From: Bacteroidetes bacterium OLB12
Lineage (GTDB): Bacteria > Bacteroidota > Bacteroidia > Cytophagales > Cyclobacteriaceae
Direction: 5' to 3'
Assembly (NCBI GenBank): GCA_001567185.1
Contig: LNFR01000063.1
Location: forward strand, 1 to 56,615
Length of the DNA stretch: 56,615 nt
Made by a program: the position numbers and the translations under genes. The notes beneath the pieces were generated by a model. That model was not told the origin of the DNA. It searched no databases and was given only the letters and a program-made list of their open reading frames with translations. This document shows positions 43,719 to 49,075 of this stretch, in pieces. Every line of letters starts with the position of its first letter. The first letter of the stretch is position 1.

Positions 43719-44824
43719 TTATACCCGCTCCGTTACCTGATTCATTACTTTCGTTTGTACCTGAATGGATTCGTGGTGAATCAATTTCAGCAAATCGCTT
43801 GTAAATTCTTCGCTCAATCCCATTGCCTTACATAAAGCCACCCGGGTTTGCACAATTTCTTCCCAGCGACTAACCTGTAAAATGGTTACATTATTTTCTT
43901 TCTTATACTGGCCAATCTTTTCTGAGATTTTCATACGCTGCGATAAGCGTTGCATAATTTCATCATCCAACTGGTCGATCTGTTCGCGTAAAATGCTTAG
44001 GGTATCTTTAAAAGTTTTGTCTTCAACCGAAGGTGTGCGTACCACCAACTCGCTTACAATTTTTCCCAACACAGCCGGGGTAACCTGTTGCTTGGCATCG
44101 CTCCATGCTGCATCGGGGTTAATATGGCTTTCAATCATCAATCCGGCCATGTCCAGATCAAGGGCTTTTTGAGAGATGAAGGCAATCAAATCGCGGTTAC
44201 CGGCAATGTGGCTTGGGTCGCAGATCATATCCAACTCTGGTACCCGGGTTTTTAATTCAATGGCCAGGTCCCACATGGGGGCATTGCGAAACGGTCCTTT
44301 TTCAAACGATGAGAACCCGCGGTGAATAGCGGCCAGCTTGGTAATGCCTGCTTTGTTTAAACGCTCTAAGGCACCTAACCACAATTCAACATCGGGGTTA
44401 ATCGGATTTTTTAACCAGCACGGGAATATCCACACCTTTCAATGCATCGGCTACTTCCTGAACCGAGAATGGATTTACCGTAGTACGGGCTCCTACCCAA
44501 AGAAAATTTACACCCGCCTTTAAAGCCGCTTCCACATGTGCTGCATTGGCTACTTCGGTTGTTACGGGCAAACCAGTTTCTTTACCAGCCTGCACCAACC
44601 ACTTTAAACCCACATCGCCAGCACCTTCATATTGGCCTGGCCTGGTACGCGGTTTCCAGATACCGGCACGCAAGGCATCTACTTTTCCGGTAGCTGCAAC
44701 TTGCCTGGCTGTAGCAATGGTCTGCTCTTCCGTCTCGGCACTGCATGGGCCACTGATAATTACCGGGCGTTTTTACTTTCATCCACGATGAGATGGGTTC
44801 GAGTTGTAATCCTTTCTTTGTCAT
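43719..44824 (-). CDS. Bifunctional DAHP synthase / chorismate mutase, three frame breaks
   Basis: N-terminal class I-beta type 3-deoxy-7-phosphoheptulonate synthase (IISGPCSAETEEQT, ALRAGIWKPRTRPGQYEGAG, LDMICDPSHIAGNRD) and C-terminal AroQ chorismate mutase (ILREQIDQLDDEIMQRLSQRMKISEKIGQYKKENN). It supplies the first step and the branch step of Phe/Tyr synthesis. Base losses near 44765 and 44776 and an extra A in the run at 44407-44412 split it into three frames; corrected, VLVKNPINPDVELW is restored. ATG 44824, about 369 residues. Last gene of the operon led by pheA, hence probably under the same attenuator. Confidence 0.9.
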
Positions 44825-44883: not shown

Positions 44884-45750
44884 TTATGTTTTGGGTTTAT
44901 CGCTATGCTGATCCAGCACTCTGCGAATTTCATTTGCCTTTGACATGATTCGATGTAATTCCTTTGTATCGCGCTTCATTAAATGATAATGAAATTTTTG
45001 CAGATGCATAATGTATTCCAGCAAAGCCTGGCTTAGATACTCCACATTTTGTTCAAAGATGGGCGCCCACATATCGGGCGAGCTTTTCGCTAAGCGTACC
45101 GTAGAAGCAAAACCACTACCGGCCAGATCGAAAATATTTTTTTCATCCCGCTCGATGTCTAACACAGTTTGTCCTAATAAAAAAGAACTTACGTGCGAGA
45201 GGTGTGAAACATAGGCCACATGCCGGTCGTGTTCATCAGCTTCCATAAAGATGGTCTTCATTTCTAACGCATCGAACACTTTCATAGCGGTATTCAACGC
45301 ATCTACGGAAGATTTATTGGCCTCACAGATAATGTTGGTTTTACCTTTAAACAAACCATCGAACGCAGCGGTGGGGCCTGAGTTTTCAGTACCGGCAATT
45401 GGATGTGCTGCCACAAACTGATTCCGCTTAGGGTGGTTAGCTACCGATTTACAAATCGATGTCTTGGTTGATCCGCCATCAATTACCACAGCACCCTTCT
45501 TCACGATATCAAGTACTGCTGGTAAAAAAGCATGCAGGGCATTTACCGGAATAGCCAACACAACCAGGTCGGCTGTTGACAAGGCTTTGTCCTCGGTTAA
45601 GATTTTATCAACCAGTCCAAGTTCTACTGCCTTTATGCCATTGGCCGCATTTGCATCTACACCCACCAACTCGGTAGCAATACCGGCCCTGCGCAAGCCC
45701 AATGCCATTGAACCTCCAATCAAGCCTAATCCTACTATTGCAGTCTTCAT
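44884..45750 (-). CDS. tyrA: Prephenate dehydrogenase
   Basis: 288 residues. NAD-binding opening MKTAIVGLGLIGGSMALGLRRAG, the HPIAGTENSGP block with the catalytic His, and the helical dimer domain (DEHDRHVAYVSHLSHVSSFLLG). It oxidises and decarboxylates prephenate to 4-hydroxyphenylpyruvate. It starts three bases after the aminotransferase stop, so translation is likely coupled. No ACT domain, so feedback inhibition must come from elsewhere or regulation is at transcription. Confidence 0.92.
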   Translation of the reverse strand: MKTAIVGLGLIGGSMALGLRRAGIATELVGVDANAANGIKAVELGLVDKILTEDKALSTADLVVLAIPVNALHAFLPAVLDIVKKGAVVIDGGSTKTSICKSVANHPKRNQFVAAHPIAGTENSGPTAAFDGLFKGKTNIICEANKSSVDALNTAMKVFDALEMKTIFMEADEHDRHVAYVSHLSHVSSFLLGQTVLDIERDEKNIFDLAGSGFASTVRLAKSSPDMWAPIFEQNVEYLSQALLEYIMHLQKFHYHLMKRDTKELHRIMSKANEIRRVLDQHSDKPKT

Positions 45751-45753
45751 GGT

Positions 45754-46950
45754 TCAGACGTTAGATGTTAGTTTGGAGATGCCGGACGTTTCCGCCAGAA
45801 ATTTTTGAATTCGTTCCAGGGCCTCTTTCAGTTTTTCTTCTGTTGCGCATAGGGAGATGCGGATAAAGCGAGCACCACCTTCGCCAAAAATAAAACCAGG
45901 CGTAATAAATACATGGGTTCCATACAATACTTCATCAATCCACTTCTCTACATCCGTTACGTGTGCAGGGGCCTTTGCCCACACAAACAAGCCCGATTGC
46001 TTTTCGGAATAAGAACAACCCATTGCATCCAGAATTTGCCTCGCTGCCGCTCTTCTTTTTTTATAAACTGAATTTAGTTCTGTAAACCAATCCGCTCCAC
46101 ATTTCAAAGCTTCTGCTGCTGCTTGTTGCAACCCCAGAAACATGCCACTATCCATATTACTTTTTACACGAAGCACCGCATCTACCAAATCTTTGTTTCC
46201 AGCCACCCACCCAATACGCCAGCCGGCCATATTGTGCGATTTGCTTAATGAATTAAGTTCTAAGGCAACATCAGCCGCTCCTTCTATTGCCAGAATGCTT
46301 TGAGGATTATCGTTTAAGATTAATGAATACGGATTATCATTTACAATTAAAAAGTTATTTGCGCGGGCAAGATCTACAAGCGCTTTCAACTCTTCTTTGG
46401 AAGCCGTTCTACCCGTTGGCATGTGCGGAAAATTAACCCACATAATTTTTACTTTCGATAGATCCGTTCGCTTTAAAGCTGCCACATCAATTCCCCAATC
46501 AAGCGATTCCTGAAGGTCATACGTTCTCACCTTGGCCCCTACCAGTTTTGCTACGGATGAATAGGTTGGATAACCCGGGTTGGGAATCAACACTTCTTCC
46601 CCTTCATTTACAAAAGCCATAGCAATGTGCATGATGCCTTCTTTAGAACCCATGAGGGGGAGTATTTCCGTTTCCGGATTCAGATTTACACCGTACGTAT
46701 TTTTATAAAATCCCTGAATAGCCTGGCGCAAAGCAGGTATGCCTTTATAATTTTGGTACCCGTGGCTGCTTGCTTTCTGTGCCGTTGCATTCAACGCTTC
46801 AATTACGTGCGGAGCAGGAGCCTGGTCGGGGCTACCAATACCCAGGTTAATTACCGGATGGGCCGGTGTATCTAATCCACGCACTTCCGCTAACTTCTTG
46901 CTGAAGTAATATTCTTCTACGTTGGCAATCCGGTTTGCAGTCTTAATCAT
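45754..46950 (-). CDS. Class I/II aminotransferase (aromatic/aspartate type)
   Basis: 398 residues from ATG 46950 (MIKTANRIANVEEYYF); a TTG at 46965 is the alternative. PLP enzyme with INLGIGSPDQAP, the SKSHNMAGWRIGWVAG lysine site, and the GARFIRISLCATEE arginine near the end. In this operon it should aminate phenylpyruvate and 4-hydroxyphenylpyruvate to Phe and Tyr. Tight spacing to pheA and tyrA. Confidence 0.88.
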   Translation of the reverse strand: MIKTANRIANVEEYYFSKKLAEVRGLDTPAHPVINLGIGSPDQAPAPHVIEALNATAQKASSHGYQNYKGIPALRQAIQGFYKNTYGVNLNPETEILPLMGSKEGIMHIAMAFVNEGEEVLIPNPGYPTYSSVAKLVGAKVRTYDLQESLDWGIDVAALKRTDLSKVKIMWVNFPHMPTGRTASKEELKALVDLARANNFLIVNDNPYSLILNDNPQSILAIEGAADVALELNSLSKSHNMAGWRIGWVAGNKDLVDAVLRVKSNMDSGMFLGLQQAAAEALKCGADWFTELNSVYKKRRAAARQILDAMGCSYSEKQSGLFVWAKAPAHVTDVEKWIDEVLYGTHVFITPGFIFGEGGARFIRISLCATEEKLKEALERIQKFLAETSGISKLTSNV

Positions 46951-46961
46951 ATTACTTGTAT

Positions 46962-47795
46962 TCAATCTTCGCTTTTTTGTATTCGCCCAAAATATTCAGA
47001 TTTTTTTACCTGTCGCAGTACTTCACCAATTGCTACATCATAGCTTTTGCGTTTCTTCCACTCTACATCGATGTGAATAGAATATTCGCTTGGCTTACCG
47101 ATAATAGGTATTGATTGTATCTTCGAAAGATTAATGCTGTTGTTCTTAAATGTCATCAACGCATCGGCCAGGCTGCCCACTTCGTTGGCAACTTCAAAAC
47201 ACAAAGAGGCTTTGTTGCTATCAGGTAAAGTTTTGATTTTGCGGGTAAGAATCAGAAACCGCGTAAAGTTTTTCTTATGTGTTTCAATCCGTTTTTCCAG
47301 AATATTTAAACCGAATTTTTTGGCTGCATATTCATTGGCTATCGCGGCCGTAGTTTTTAACTTTTGCTCTTTCACTTTACGCGCAGATAGTGCCGTGTCA
47401 TCGCTTTCTAAGATCTGCACACCATTCAATCTATAAAGAAAGTCTGAACATTGGCGGATGGCCATTGGGTGCGACTCAATGCTGGTAAGGTCACTCACCT
47501 TTACGCCCGGTAATGCCAGCAAGTGCATGTGTATCGGAAGATAAACCTCGCCAATAATGGAGAAATGATACTCTTGTAACAAAAAGTAGTTCGGCAAAAT
47601 GCTTCCCGCGATGGAGTTTTCAATAGCCATTACGGCATAGTCGGATTCGCCTTTCTTCAACGATTCGCACAGCGCATGAAAACTCAGGCATTCTACGGTT
47701 TGAATGGGCTCCTGAAAGTAGGTTAATGCCGCTACTTCATGGAAGCTGGTGGCAATGCCCTGGATGGCGATCTTTAATTTTTTCTTCTTGTTCAT
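46962..47795 (-). CDS. pheA: Prephenate dehydratase with ACT domain
   Basis: 277 residues from ATG 47795; the TTG at 47804 would lie in the attenuator U tract. Periplasmic-binding-like catalytic domain (KIAIQGIATSFHEVAALTYF, VMAIENSIAGSILPNYFLL, ESHPMAIRQCSDFL, DDTALSARKV) followed by an ACT domain (LCFEVANEVGSLADALMTFKNNSINLSKIQSIPI) that binds Phe. It makes phenylpyruvate. First gene after the Phe/Tyr leader, so it is directly controlled by attenuation. Confidence 0.93.
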   Translation of the reverse strand: MNKKKKLKIAIQGIATSFHEVAALTYFQEPIQTVECLSFHALCESLKKGESDYAVMAIENSIAGSILPNYFLLQEYHFSIIGEVYLPIHMHLLALPGVKVSDLTSIESHPMAIRQCSDFLYRLNGVQILESDDTALSARKVKEQKLKTTAAIANEYAAKKFGLNILEKRIETHKKNFTRFLILTRKIKTLPDSNKASLCFEVANEVGSLADALMTFKNNSINLSKIQSIPIIGKPSEYSIHIDVEWKKRKSYDVAIGEVLRQVKKSEYFGRIQKSED

Positions 47796-47802
47796 ATACT
47801 TC

Positions 47803-47835
47803 AAAAAGAAAGTCCCTCTTTTGGGAGGGACTTTC
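47803..47835 (-). terminator. Attenuator terminator in the aromatic operon leader
   Basis: Minus strand: GAAAGTCCCTC, loop, GAGGGACTTTC, then TTTTT. The 11-pair stem (47825-47835 with 47808-47818) and U tract end only eight bases before the pheA ATG. The left arm can instead pair with AGGGACTT in the leader ORF (47881-47888), which would prevent the terminator. Confidence 0.9.
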
Positions 47836-47859
47836 TGGTTTCTTTCGCTTTATTATTTT

Positions 47860-47937
47860 TTAACAAACCGATTCTCTTTCAAGTCCCTGACAGGATTGAT
47901 AAAAAAAGTAAAAAAAGTAAAATCGGTTGCTGATCAT
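47860..47937 (-). CDS. Phe/Tyr leader peptide of the pheA operon
   Basis: A 25-residue ORF from ATG 47937 to TAA 47860. After MISNR come eight aromatic codons in a row, FYFFYFFY (five TTT, two TAC, one TAT), then QSCQGLERESVC. The codons CAG GGA CTT hold the antiterminator arm AGGGACTT (47881-47888). Ribosome stalling on the aromatic codons when charged tRNA-Phe or tRNA-Tyr is scarce should leave this arm free to pair with AAGTCCCT and abolish the terminator. The amino acids match the products of the downstream genes exactly. Too short for ordinary gene finding. Confidence 0.88.
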   Translation of the reverse strand: MISNRFYFFYFFYQSCQGLERESVC

Positions 47938-48006
47938 CGCTACTTCAATTCGGGTTCTAAGAACGATGAAAAATTCTGTTTGTGCAAAGCTGGCTAAAAA
48001 AAACTT

Positions 48007-48568: not shown

Positions 48569-49075
48569 CTATCGCTTCCTGCCCATCCGCTTGGTAGCAA
48601 CATGATGGGGCAACTCTACTTTCTTAGTTGGCTTTTTTCCTTCCTTTTCTTTGTTGCGTTGCTCTAACCGGATGTTGTACCGGATTGCCTGCCAGTATTC
48701 GCCTCCATAACCAACCAATATTTCCGATCCGGCCGGTATATCGCGTGTGGCTTCAATGTAGCACCGCTTTTTTTCTGTTACGTATTCGGAATTATTCTTT
48801 ACCCCTTCTATTCGCACCAGGCCGCGGGCATCGTTGGCATAGTGGGCAATCCCTTTCTTGGTTTTCCAGGCATCAATGCAATGTTTGTTATTGAAAAAAA
48901 AGACATAGCCATTCCGGTCATCTGCCATCTTTTCTACCTCCTTCCAGGTAACAAGCTCGCCTTTGTATTCTACAATACGGGTGCCTTTCGGGATAAACAC
49001 TTTTGTAAAAAGTCCTTTGCCTGCTCCCGGCAAGGTGGACTTCTTAATTATCATTTTCTTTTCAAGCAATGCCAT
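48569..49075 (-). CDS. SET-domain protein (putative lysine methyltransferase)
   Basis: 168 residues. SET core: IKKSTLPGAGKGLFTKVFIPKGTRIVEYKGE (SAM-binding G-x-G), GIAHYANDARG (the N-x-x-H/NH-like motif shifted) and SEILVGYGGEYW (GEEY-like motif). A basic C-terminal tail (RNKEKEGKKPTKKVE, KRMGRKR) could bind nucleic acid or protein. Bacterial SET proteins methylate lysine in proteins; the target is unknown. A start at residue 8 (MIIKKS) is also possible. Confidence 0.82.
   Translation of the reverse strand: MALLEKKMIIKKSTLPGAGKGLFTKVFIPKGTRIVEYKGELVTWKEVEKMADDRNGYVFFFNNKHCIDAWKTKKGIAHYANDARGLVRIEGVKNNSEYVTEKKRCYIEATRDIPAGSEILVGYGGEYWQAIRYNIRLEQRNKEKEGKKPTKKVELPHHVATKRMGRKR

Follow-up and report, generated by a model that had tools for sequence, protein, structure and literature searches.

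Organization of the pheA locus

The DNA analysed here, hereafter the window, is a 56,615-nucleotide stretch from Bacteroidetes bacterium OLB12 that carries an operon for aromatic amino acid biosynthesis on its minus strand, to which all of the features described below belong. On this strand a T-rich promoter-like box is followed by a leader ORF, a terminator with its U tract and then pheA. The leader ORF (47860..47937, start at 47937 and stop at 47860) is read from the sequence as 25 codons encoding the peptide MISNRFYFFYFFYQSCQGLERESVC, and includes eight consecutive aromatic codons, Phe-Tyr-Phe-Phe-Tyr-Phe-Phe-Tyr (FYFFYFFY), at 47899..47922. Beyond it lies a terminator hairpin in which the left arm (region 3, 47825..47836) forms 12 pairs, running from 47836 to 47825, with the right arm (region 4, GAGGGACTTTCT, 47807..47818), and the adjoining U tract is read at 47803..47807. 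Folding of the segment from 47803 to 47937 gives a z-score of -3.63, with one of 200 shuffles equally or more stable. The original prediction for this DNA had described a Phe/Tyr ribosome-mediated attenuator, and its 25-codon ORF and aromatic run are found on the minus strand with the run at exactly 47922-47899. The predicted terminator and U tract are also present and adjoin pheA, with the corrections that the hairpin contains 12 pairs and not 11, and that the spacing to pheA is seven bases and not eight.

The operon consists of pheA, an aminotransferase gene, tyrA and a DAHP synthase-chorismate mutase gene, in that order. The prephenate dehydratase gene pheA (46962..47795; Pfam PF00800, 186.7 bits) most plausibly starts at the ATG at 47795, seven bases past the U tract. 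It is followed by a class I/II aminotransferase gene whose start codon is uncertain (45754..46965; PF00155, 234.9 bits), by tyrA, encoding prephenate dehydrogenase (44884..45750; PF02153 and PF20463), and by the DAHP synthase-chorismate mutase gene (43719..44824), which is split across frames in the assembly and matches PF00793 and PF01817 on its pieces. In three relatives (G001, G002 and G005) the latter gene is open, with frames of 364-390 amino acids, and its match lies about 2.5 kb downstream of pheA on the same contig and strand. Because the gene is open in these relatives, its split in OLB12 reflects either assembly errors or a recent lesion. The downstream genes had been said to make exactly Phe and Tyr; they do include the end steps for both amino acids, but the presence of the DAHP synthase-chorismate mutase gene makes "exactly" too narrow, as DAHP synthase also feeds Trp. 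A small SET-domain protein (PF00856), here encoded by a bacterial genome, is found at 48569-49075 of the window.

Conservation of the aromatic codons within the genus

Analysis of the genus detected pheA in 32 of 36 genomes, OLB12 included, and 30 of these pheA loci were fetched, with two fragmented pheA genes (G018 and G026) left out. A leader region is present at the expected position in all 30 loci, and an intact aromatic-run leader followed by a terminator is present in 29. The leader of the thirtieth locus (L002) is frameshifted within a homopolymer, and since the L002 pheA gene also contains stops, the frameshift is likely to be a sequencing error; this locus was excluded from the peptide, pairing and folding counts. 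Among the 29 intact leaders, 218 of the 232 codons in the eight-codon run are aromatic (Phe 122, Tyr 88 and Trp 8), compared with three aromatic residues at the 417 positions outside of the run. Every leader has Phe at positions 1 and 3 of the run, and 28 of the 29 have Tyr at position 2; positions 4-8 are variable, mainly by exchange between Phe and Tyr. A Trp codon occurs within the run of 8 of the 29 leaders. Comparison with relatives had been suggested as a check, and it shows aromatic codons and competing pairings kept while other bases change. Thus, the comparison across relatives supports a ribosome-mediated attenuator with Phe and Tyr codons in front of the pheA operon.

From its codons the run may sense Phe and Tyr jointly. 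A possible but rather doubtful alternative is that the attenuator senses Phe only, or mainly one amino acid, with the Tyr and occasional Trp codons being tolerated passengers. Phe occurs in the run more often than any other residue and is invariant at positions 1 and 3, and Phe-tRNA charging is described as governing E. coli pheA via pheL (PMC11802643). The nearest analogue with a measured response, the C. glutamicum aroR leader, which contains Phe-Tyr-Phe and precedes the DAHP synthase gene aroF, is described as induced by limitation of Phe and not of Tyr (PMC11802643, citing Neshat 2014), and it is mainly this behavior of aroR that calls for caution regarding joint sensing. However, the high share of Tyr codons in the run and the near invariance of Tyr at position 2 argue against Tyr being a passenger, as do an operon that makes both Phe and Tyr and the retention of both residues by leaders from other families.

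Competing RNA pairings in the leader

An arm within the ORF (region 2, AGGGACTT, 47881..47888) had been predicted to be complementary to the left arm of the terminator, and its complement AAGTCCCT is indeed present within region 3 at 47833-47826, so that region 3 can pair either with region 2 as an antiterminator or with region 4 as a terminator. Two additional pairings, which together with the DAHP synthase-chorismate mutase gene go beyond the original prediction, involve the sequence around region 2. The first is an outer clamp helix that encloses region 2, in which a 5' arm overlapping the first sensing codons (region 1, AACCGATTTT, 47919..47928) pairs with a 3' arm located downstream of region 2 (AGAATCGGTT, 47866..47875). 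The second is a small 1b:2 hairpin of the minimum free energy structure, in which UCAA at 47896..47899 (region 1b) can pair with UUGA at 47879-47882 beside region 2.

The 2:3 pairing is stronger than in shuffled sequences (p<=0.05) in all 29 intact genus leaders and in 27 of 39 other leaders, the remaining 12 failing this threshold, and its two arms change together among relatives, for example as AGGGACTT/AAGTCCCT, CGGGGCTT/AAGCCCCG and GGGGGATT/AATCCCCC. Covariation was scored on a MAFFT alignment of 27 genus leaders (A1, from which L002, L015 and L029 were dropped). On this alignment the covariation score of the terminator exceeds that of all 500 shuffles; 6 of its 12 pairs are doubly changed, a number that 58 of the 500 shuffles also reach. 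The antiterminator is weaker on the alignment, partly because rows are misaligned: 79% of its cells are paired, its covariation score is reached by 32 of 500 shuffles and its number of doubly changed pairs by 184 of 500. The clamp is paired in 91% of cells with a covariation score above all 500 shuffles, its double change being limited to one pair that undergoes a G-C/C-G exchange. Tested against shuffles leader by leader, the clamp reaches p<=0.05 for 16 of the 29 leaders in the genus and for 11 of 39 other leaders (p=0.075 for the window leader), and it is seemingly absent from L021 and L027. In some species the 3' arm of the clamp is part of the ORF, in others (L011-L013, L017, L023, L025 and L030) all or most of it falls past the stop codon, and its retention in either position argues for a role as RNA.

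The pattern of change also bears on whether the mini-ORF might instead encode a small protein with a function of its own or a hydrophobic peptide that causes stalling, with the terminator serving as a constitutive weak attenuator. The recurrence of an aromatic-rich peptide across the class is in keeping with such a product, but the C-terminal part of the peptide varies in length and frame while the RNA arms persist, even in the seven leaders in which the clamp arm falls past the stop. A protein would likewise have no need of the complementarity between region 2 and the terminator that is present in 29 of 29 leaders, nor does it readily accommodate a run whose positions 4-8 are filled by either Phe or Tyr and, at some of them, by Trp or other residues. 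We consider this explanation to be very improbable. For the attenuator, comparative sequence analysis supports the ORF, the sensing codons, the terminator and the alternative 2:3 and 3:4 pairings, and less firmly the clamp; from these features we infer translation of the ORF, ribosome stalling, a response to Phe and Tyr, and sequestration of region 2 in the fed state.

Predicted start of the transcript

A putative -33 element, TTTG, is located at 47985..47988, and a putative -7 box, GTTCTTAG, at 47957..47964, both assigned by reference to the sigma-ABfr consensus as given in PMC7366714 and PMC9723704. The box reads TTTCTTAG, TTTCTTTG or TTTATTTG in relatives, and 26 of the 30 genus loci have a loose version of its pattern within 20 nt of the leader start codon, as scored without a shuffle control. 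TTG or TTTG elements precede the leader in many (uncounted) loci of the genus. The -7 box is reported to occupy positions -12 to -5 relative to the transcript start (PMC9723704), and from this spacing and the position of the putative box a 5' UTR of about 15 nt is predicted for OLB12 and one of about 1 nt for five relatives (L011, L012, L013, L023 and L025). In these five loci the leader start codon lies five bases past the end of the -7-like box, which suggests that their leader mRNAs may be almost leaderless.

Distribution of the leader outside of the genus loci

A scan of named genomes covered 169 relatives with pheA, of which 80 loci were kept, and all 80 passed the leader-plus-terminator scan. 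These include Chryseolinea serpens, Chryseolinea lacunae, Ohtaekwangia koreensis, Dawidia soli and Chryseotalea sanaruensis. The named set overlaps the genus set, with 27 of the 80 leaders identical to a genus locus, among them L217, which is the frameshifted record.

A wider survey of the phylum gave a pheA match in 155 of 178 genomes. Loci were examined from 37 of 39 other genomes of the class (taken to be Bacteroidia), including one genus member and three members of the family, with two weak pheA matches (G069 and G151) left out, and from 32 of the 115 pheA-matching genomes of other classes, chosen non-randomly. A strict scan, which called for at least six aromatic codons out of eight in a mini-ORF together with a terminator upstream of pheA, was positive in 27 of 37 class loci and in 4 of 32 loci from other classes (31 of 69 in total). 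As a control, 1380 dinucleotide shuffles yielded 22 ORFs but no ORF with a terminator, and none of the 69 reverse complements contained this combination. A relaxed scan, with at least six aromatic codons out of ten and a required terminator but run without a shuffle control, was positive in 35 of 37 class loci and in the same four loci from other classes. Thus, neither scan found a leader before pheA in 28 of the 32 pheA loci examined from other classes, and the four positive loci are the best-scoring pheA genes among those classes. The two misses within the class (G132 and G167) have the leader about 3.5 kb upstream of pheA, where it heads a DAHPS-CM/aroB/aroA/pheA operon. The leader therefore seems to mark the head of an aromatic operon rather than pheA itself.

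Two other search methods were of more limited use. A DNA pattern for runs of Phe and Tyr codons was too noisy to retain, with a backward control matching at rates that by eye were similar; of 30 loci fetched with it, 7 have a short ORF with a terminator, two of these being from the genus. A covariance model (R1) recovered the leader in all 17 of the best loci that were read (E<=1.8e-5) and in only 3 of the next 13 (L082, L083 and L085). Its tally of 109 of 291 genomes was rejected as a leader count because most of the weaker matches read are ordinary terminators.

Three loci (L145 and L155 of family f13 and L156 of family f26) have two tandem aromatic-run mini-ORFs upstream of pheA, which are possibly two attenuators in series.

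Leaders of other amino acid operons

A His-rich leader followed by a terminator is present before hisG in all eight genus loci scanned (L191-L198), a scan performed without a shuffle control and without OLB12, whose hisG lies on contig ends. The leader is located 229-258 nt upstream of the HisG match, and an example of its peptide is MNNTHTTHHHHTILTDGRLMR. Scans of two order-level loci gave no such leader. Before ilvD, scans of 9 of 13 loci revealed no BCAA leader, in a search whose threshold may miss leaders and in which ilvD is perhaps not the operon head. As judged by its codons and terminator, the hisG leader is a candidate for a second leader-peptide attenuator in the genus.

Relation to known RNA families and attenuators

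Comparison of the window with Rfam gave a match to Phe_leader (RF01859) of 37 bits, below the gathering threshold of 55 bits; at E<=0.01, 4 of 10 relatives match with 38.8-42.6 bits. Although the sub-threshold match spans the element, we reject it as evidence of family membership because it is unspecific, with matches at E<=1 in 259 of 296 genomes of the phylum and in 9 of 14 control genomes; none of the 296 phylum genomes exceeds the cut-off. The putative cis-regulatory RNA Bacteroid-trp (RF01692) of Bacteroidetes (PMC2864571, Table 1) differs in that, judging by its name, it concerns trp genes, and it was found in 0 of 19 genomes, OLB12 included, at E<=0.1, with the control Bacteroides ihuae scoring over the cut-off. 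At gathering scores the window has no T-box match, nor one to any other Rfam family, and Table 3 of PMC2494555 lists 0 T-boxes in 7 Bacteroidetes/Chlorobi genomes. A translation-independent RNA sensor, either riboswitch-like or protein-bound, would account for the conserved alternative structures, but it is the least probable explanation that we have considered, since no Rfam family reaches its cut-off over the element, whether in the window or in any of 20 related loci, conservation is centred on codons for the product amino acids, and His codons precede hisG in the same genus. The sole Rfam match over its cut-off among these 20 loci is Flavo-1, which L136 (family f25) carries elsewhere in the locus.

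Three of the features that identify the preferred reading, a ribosome-mediated attenuator, are present in the sequence: a run of product codons, an intrinsic terminator and a mutually exclusive antiterminator arm within or near the ORF. Vitreschak et al. 2004 reportedly predicted attenuators in Bacteroidetes/Chlorobi. In E. coli the pheL attenuator likewise consists of a leader peptide upstream of pheA. The OLB12 leader resembles pheL in preceding pheA and in the presumed control by charging of the product amino acid's tRNA, as described for pheL in PMC11802643. It differs in that pheL answers to Phe whereas the OLB12 leader alternates Phe and Tyr, with occasional Trp in relatives, in that the OLB12 operon is pheA-aminotransferase-tyrA-DAHPS, and in that Shine-Dalgarno pairing is unexpected at initiation. 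Bacteroidia ribosomes are reported to fail to recognise Shine-Dalgarno sequences (PMC9976891). As described in PMC11802643, C. glutamicum aroR also uses a Phe-Tyr-Phe leader peptide and ribosome stalling to control an aromatic operon, but it belongs to another phylum and has three named aromatic residues in contrast to the eight in a row found here. The candidate uORFs of Fig. 6b in PMC6429828 similarly contain Phe and Tyr codons and are associated with shikimate genes.

The original prediction knew of no described case in this clade, but the wider clade does have one on record. A study of Flavobacterium psychrophilum reports structured 5' elements, lacking an Rfam family, upstream of pheA and hisG that are common to Flavobacteriaceae genera, together with clues of leader-peptide attenuation upstream of amino acid operons (PMC9723704). 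As compared by description, these elements are like ours in belonging to the same wider clade, in preceding pheA and hisG and in having no Rfam family, and the pheA leaders of the f25 genomes, whose family we guess to be Flavobacteriaceae, may be the same element as the pheA 5' element of that study. Relative to the account in PMC9723704, the present analysis of a Cytophagales genus details the codons, the competing helices, the clamp, the spread across the class and the move to the operon head. Bacteroides thetaiotaomicron, a member of the same phylum, has sORFs in long 5' UTRs that are described as reminiscent of attenuation leader peptides, but the example named there precedes a gene for a hypothetical protein, BT_4401, and is unvalidated (PMC7366714). 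Within the portions of the literature covered, only PMC9723704 and PMC7366714 describe something approaching a Phe/Tyr leader from this phylum.

A model for attenuation of the aromatic operon

Sequence comparison makes us confident that an aromatic amino acid operon is here controlled by a ribosome-mediated transcription attenuator. RNA polymerase would start just upstream of the 25-codon leader ORF with a ribosome trailing it. When Phe- or Tyr-tRNA is scarce the ribosome would stall on the eight aromatic codons and cover regions 1 and 1b, thereby blocking the outer clamp and the 1b:2 hairpin. Region 2 (AGGGACTT) would then be available to the newly emerging region 3 (AAGTCCCT), and their pairing would prevent formation of the 3:4 terminator and allow transcription of pheA, the aminotransferase gene, tyrA and the DAHP synthase gene. 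When charged tRNA is ample the ribosome would instead complete the leader, region 2 would be unavailable, and the 3:4 terminator would form and end the transcript near 47803. Region 2 could be withheld in more than one way. In some species the stop codon overlaps region 2, so that a ribosome at the stop would mask it, whereas in OLB12 the 1b:2 hairpin and the clamp would likely reseal region 2 after the ribosome leaves.

We modeled the starved state with the sensing codons covered by a ribosome footprint of 28 nt and calculated the 2:3 pairing probability before region 4 is made. With the ribosome stalled, the mean modeled 2:3 probability over 29 leaders is 0.96, with locus means of 0.78-0.99; in L003 a stall at the first two codons of the run gives only 0.16-0.29. 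The stalled value exceeds the ribosome-free value in 20 of the 29 leaders and the value with a ribosome at the stop codon in 23 of the 29. Thus, the starved state is well supported by the folding model.

The modeled fed state does not clearly lead to termination. With a ribosome at the stop codon, the modeled 2:3 probability is 0.00 in nine leaders whose ORF ends no more than 12 nt from region 2, and 0.42-0.99 in the other 20 of 29, whose ORF ends 18-24 nt beyond region 2. In this second group the distance would keep a ribosome waiting at the stop from covering region 2, and the window leader belongs to this group with a value of 0.97. In the absence of a ribosome the 2:3 probability is 0.48 for the window leader, with a mean of 0.76 and a median of 0.95 over the 29 leaders. 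The fed-state step would therefore rest on kinetics or on the clamp, and resealing of region 2 after ribosome departure is the least supported part of the model. Once region 4 is present, the equilibrium 3:4 probability is at least 0.76 in 28 of 29 leaders, stalled or not, the exception being L027 with 0.00, where an arm is possibly mis-set. The decision between 2:3 and 3:4 must therefore be kinetic.

Viewed against known systems, the attenuator is of a classic type that many relatives share and that has partly been noted before in flavobacteria, with the more distinctive traits suggested by the sequence being the mixed Phe/Tyr run, the clamp and the very short predicted 5' UTR. Tentatively, and with reservations, we extend this description to an aromatic attenuator found throughout Bacteroidia and outside of Rfam that may read Phe and Tyr (and sometimes Trp) charging jointly, and that would stand at the head of whichever operon holds the aromatic genes. 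In this proposal a clamp enclosing the sensing codons would seal the antiterminator arm, initiation would be near-leaderless and independent of Shine-Dalgarno pairing, and tight coupling of transcription and translation would be implied in the phylum. Transcription attenuation by stalled ribosomes may be a standing method of regulation across Bacteroidia, and the element could support a new Rfam entry. The leader is present in cultured strains of Chryseolinea serpens and Ohtaekwangia koreensis.
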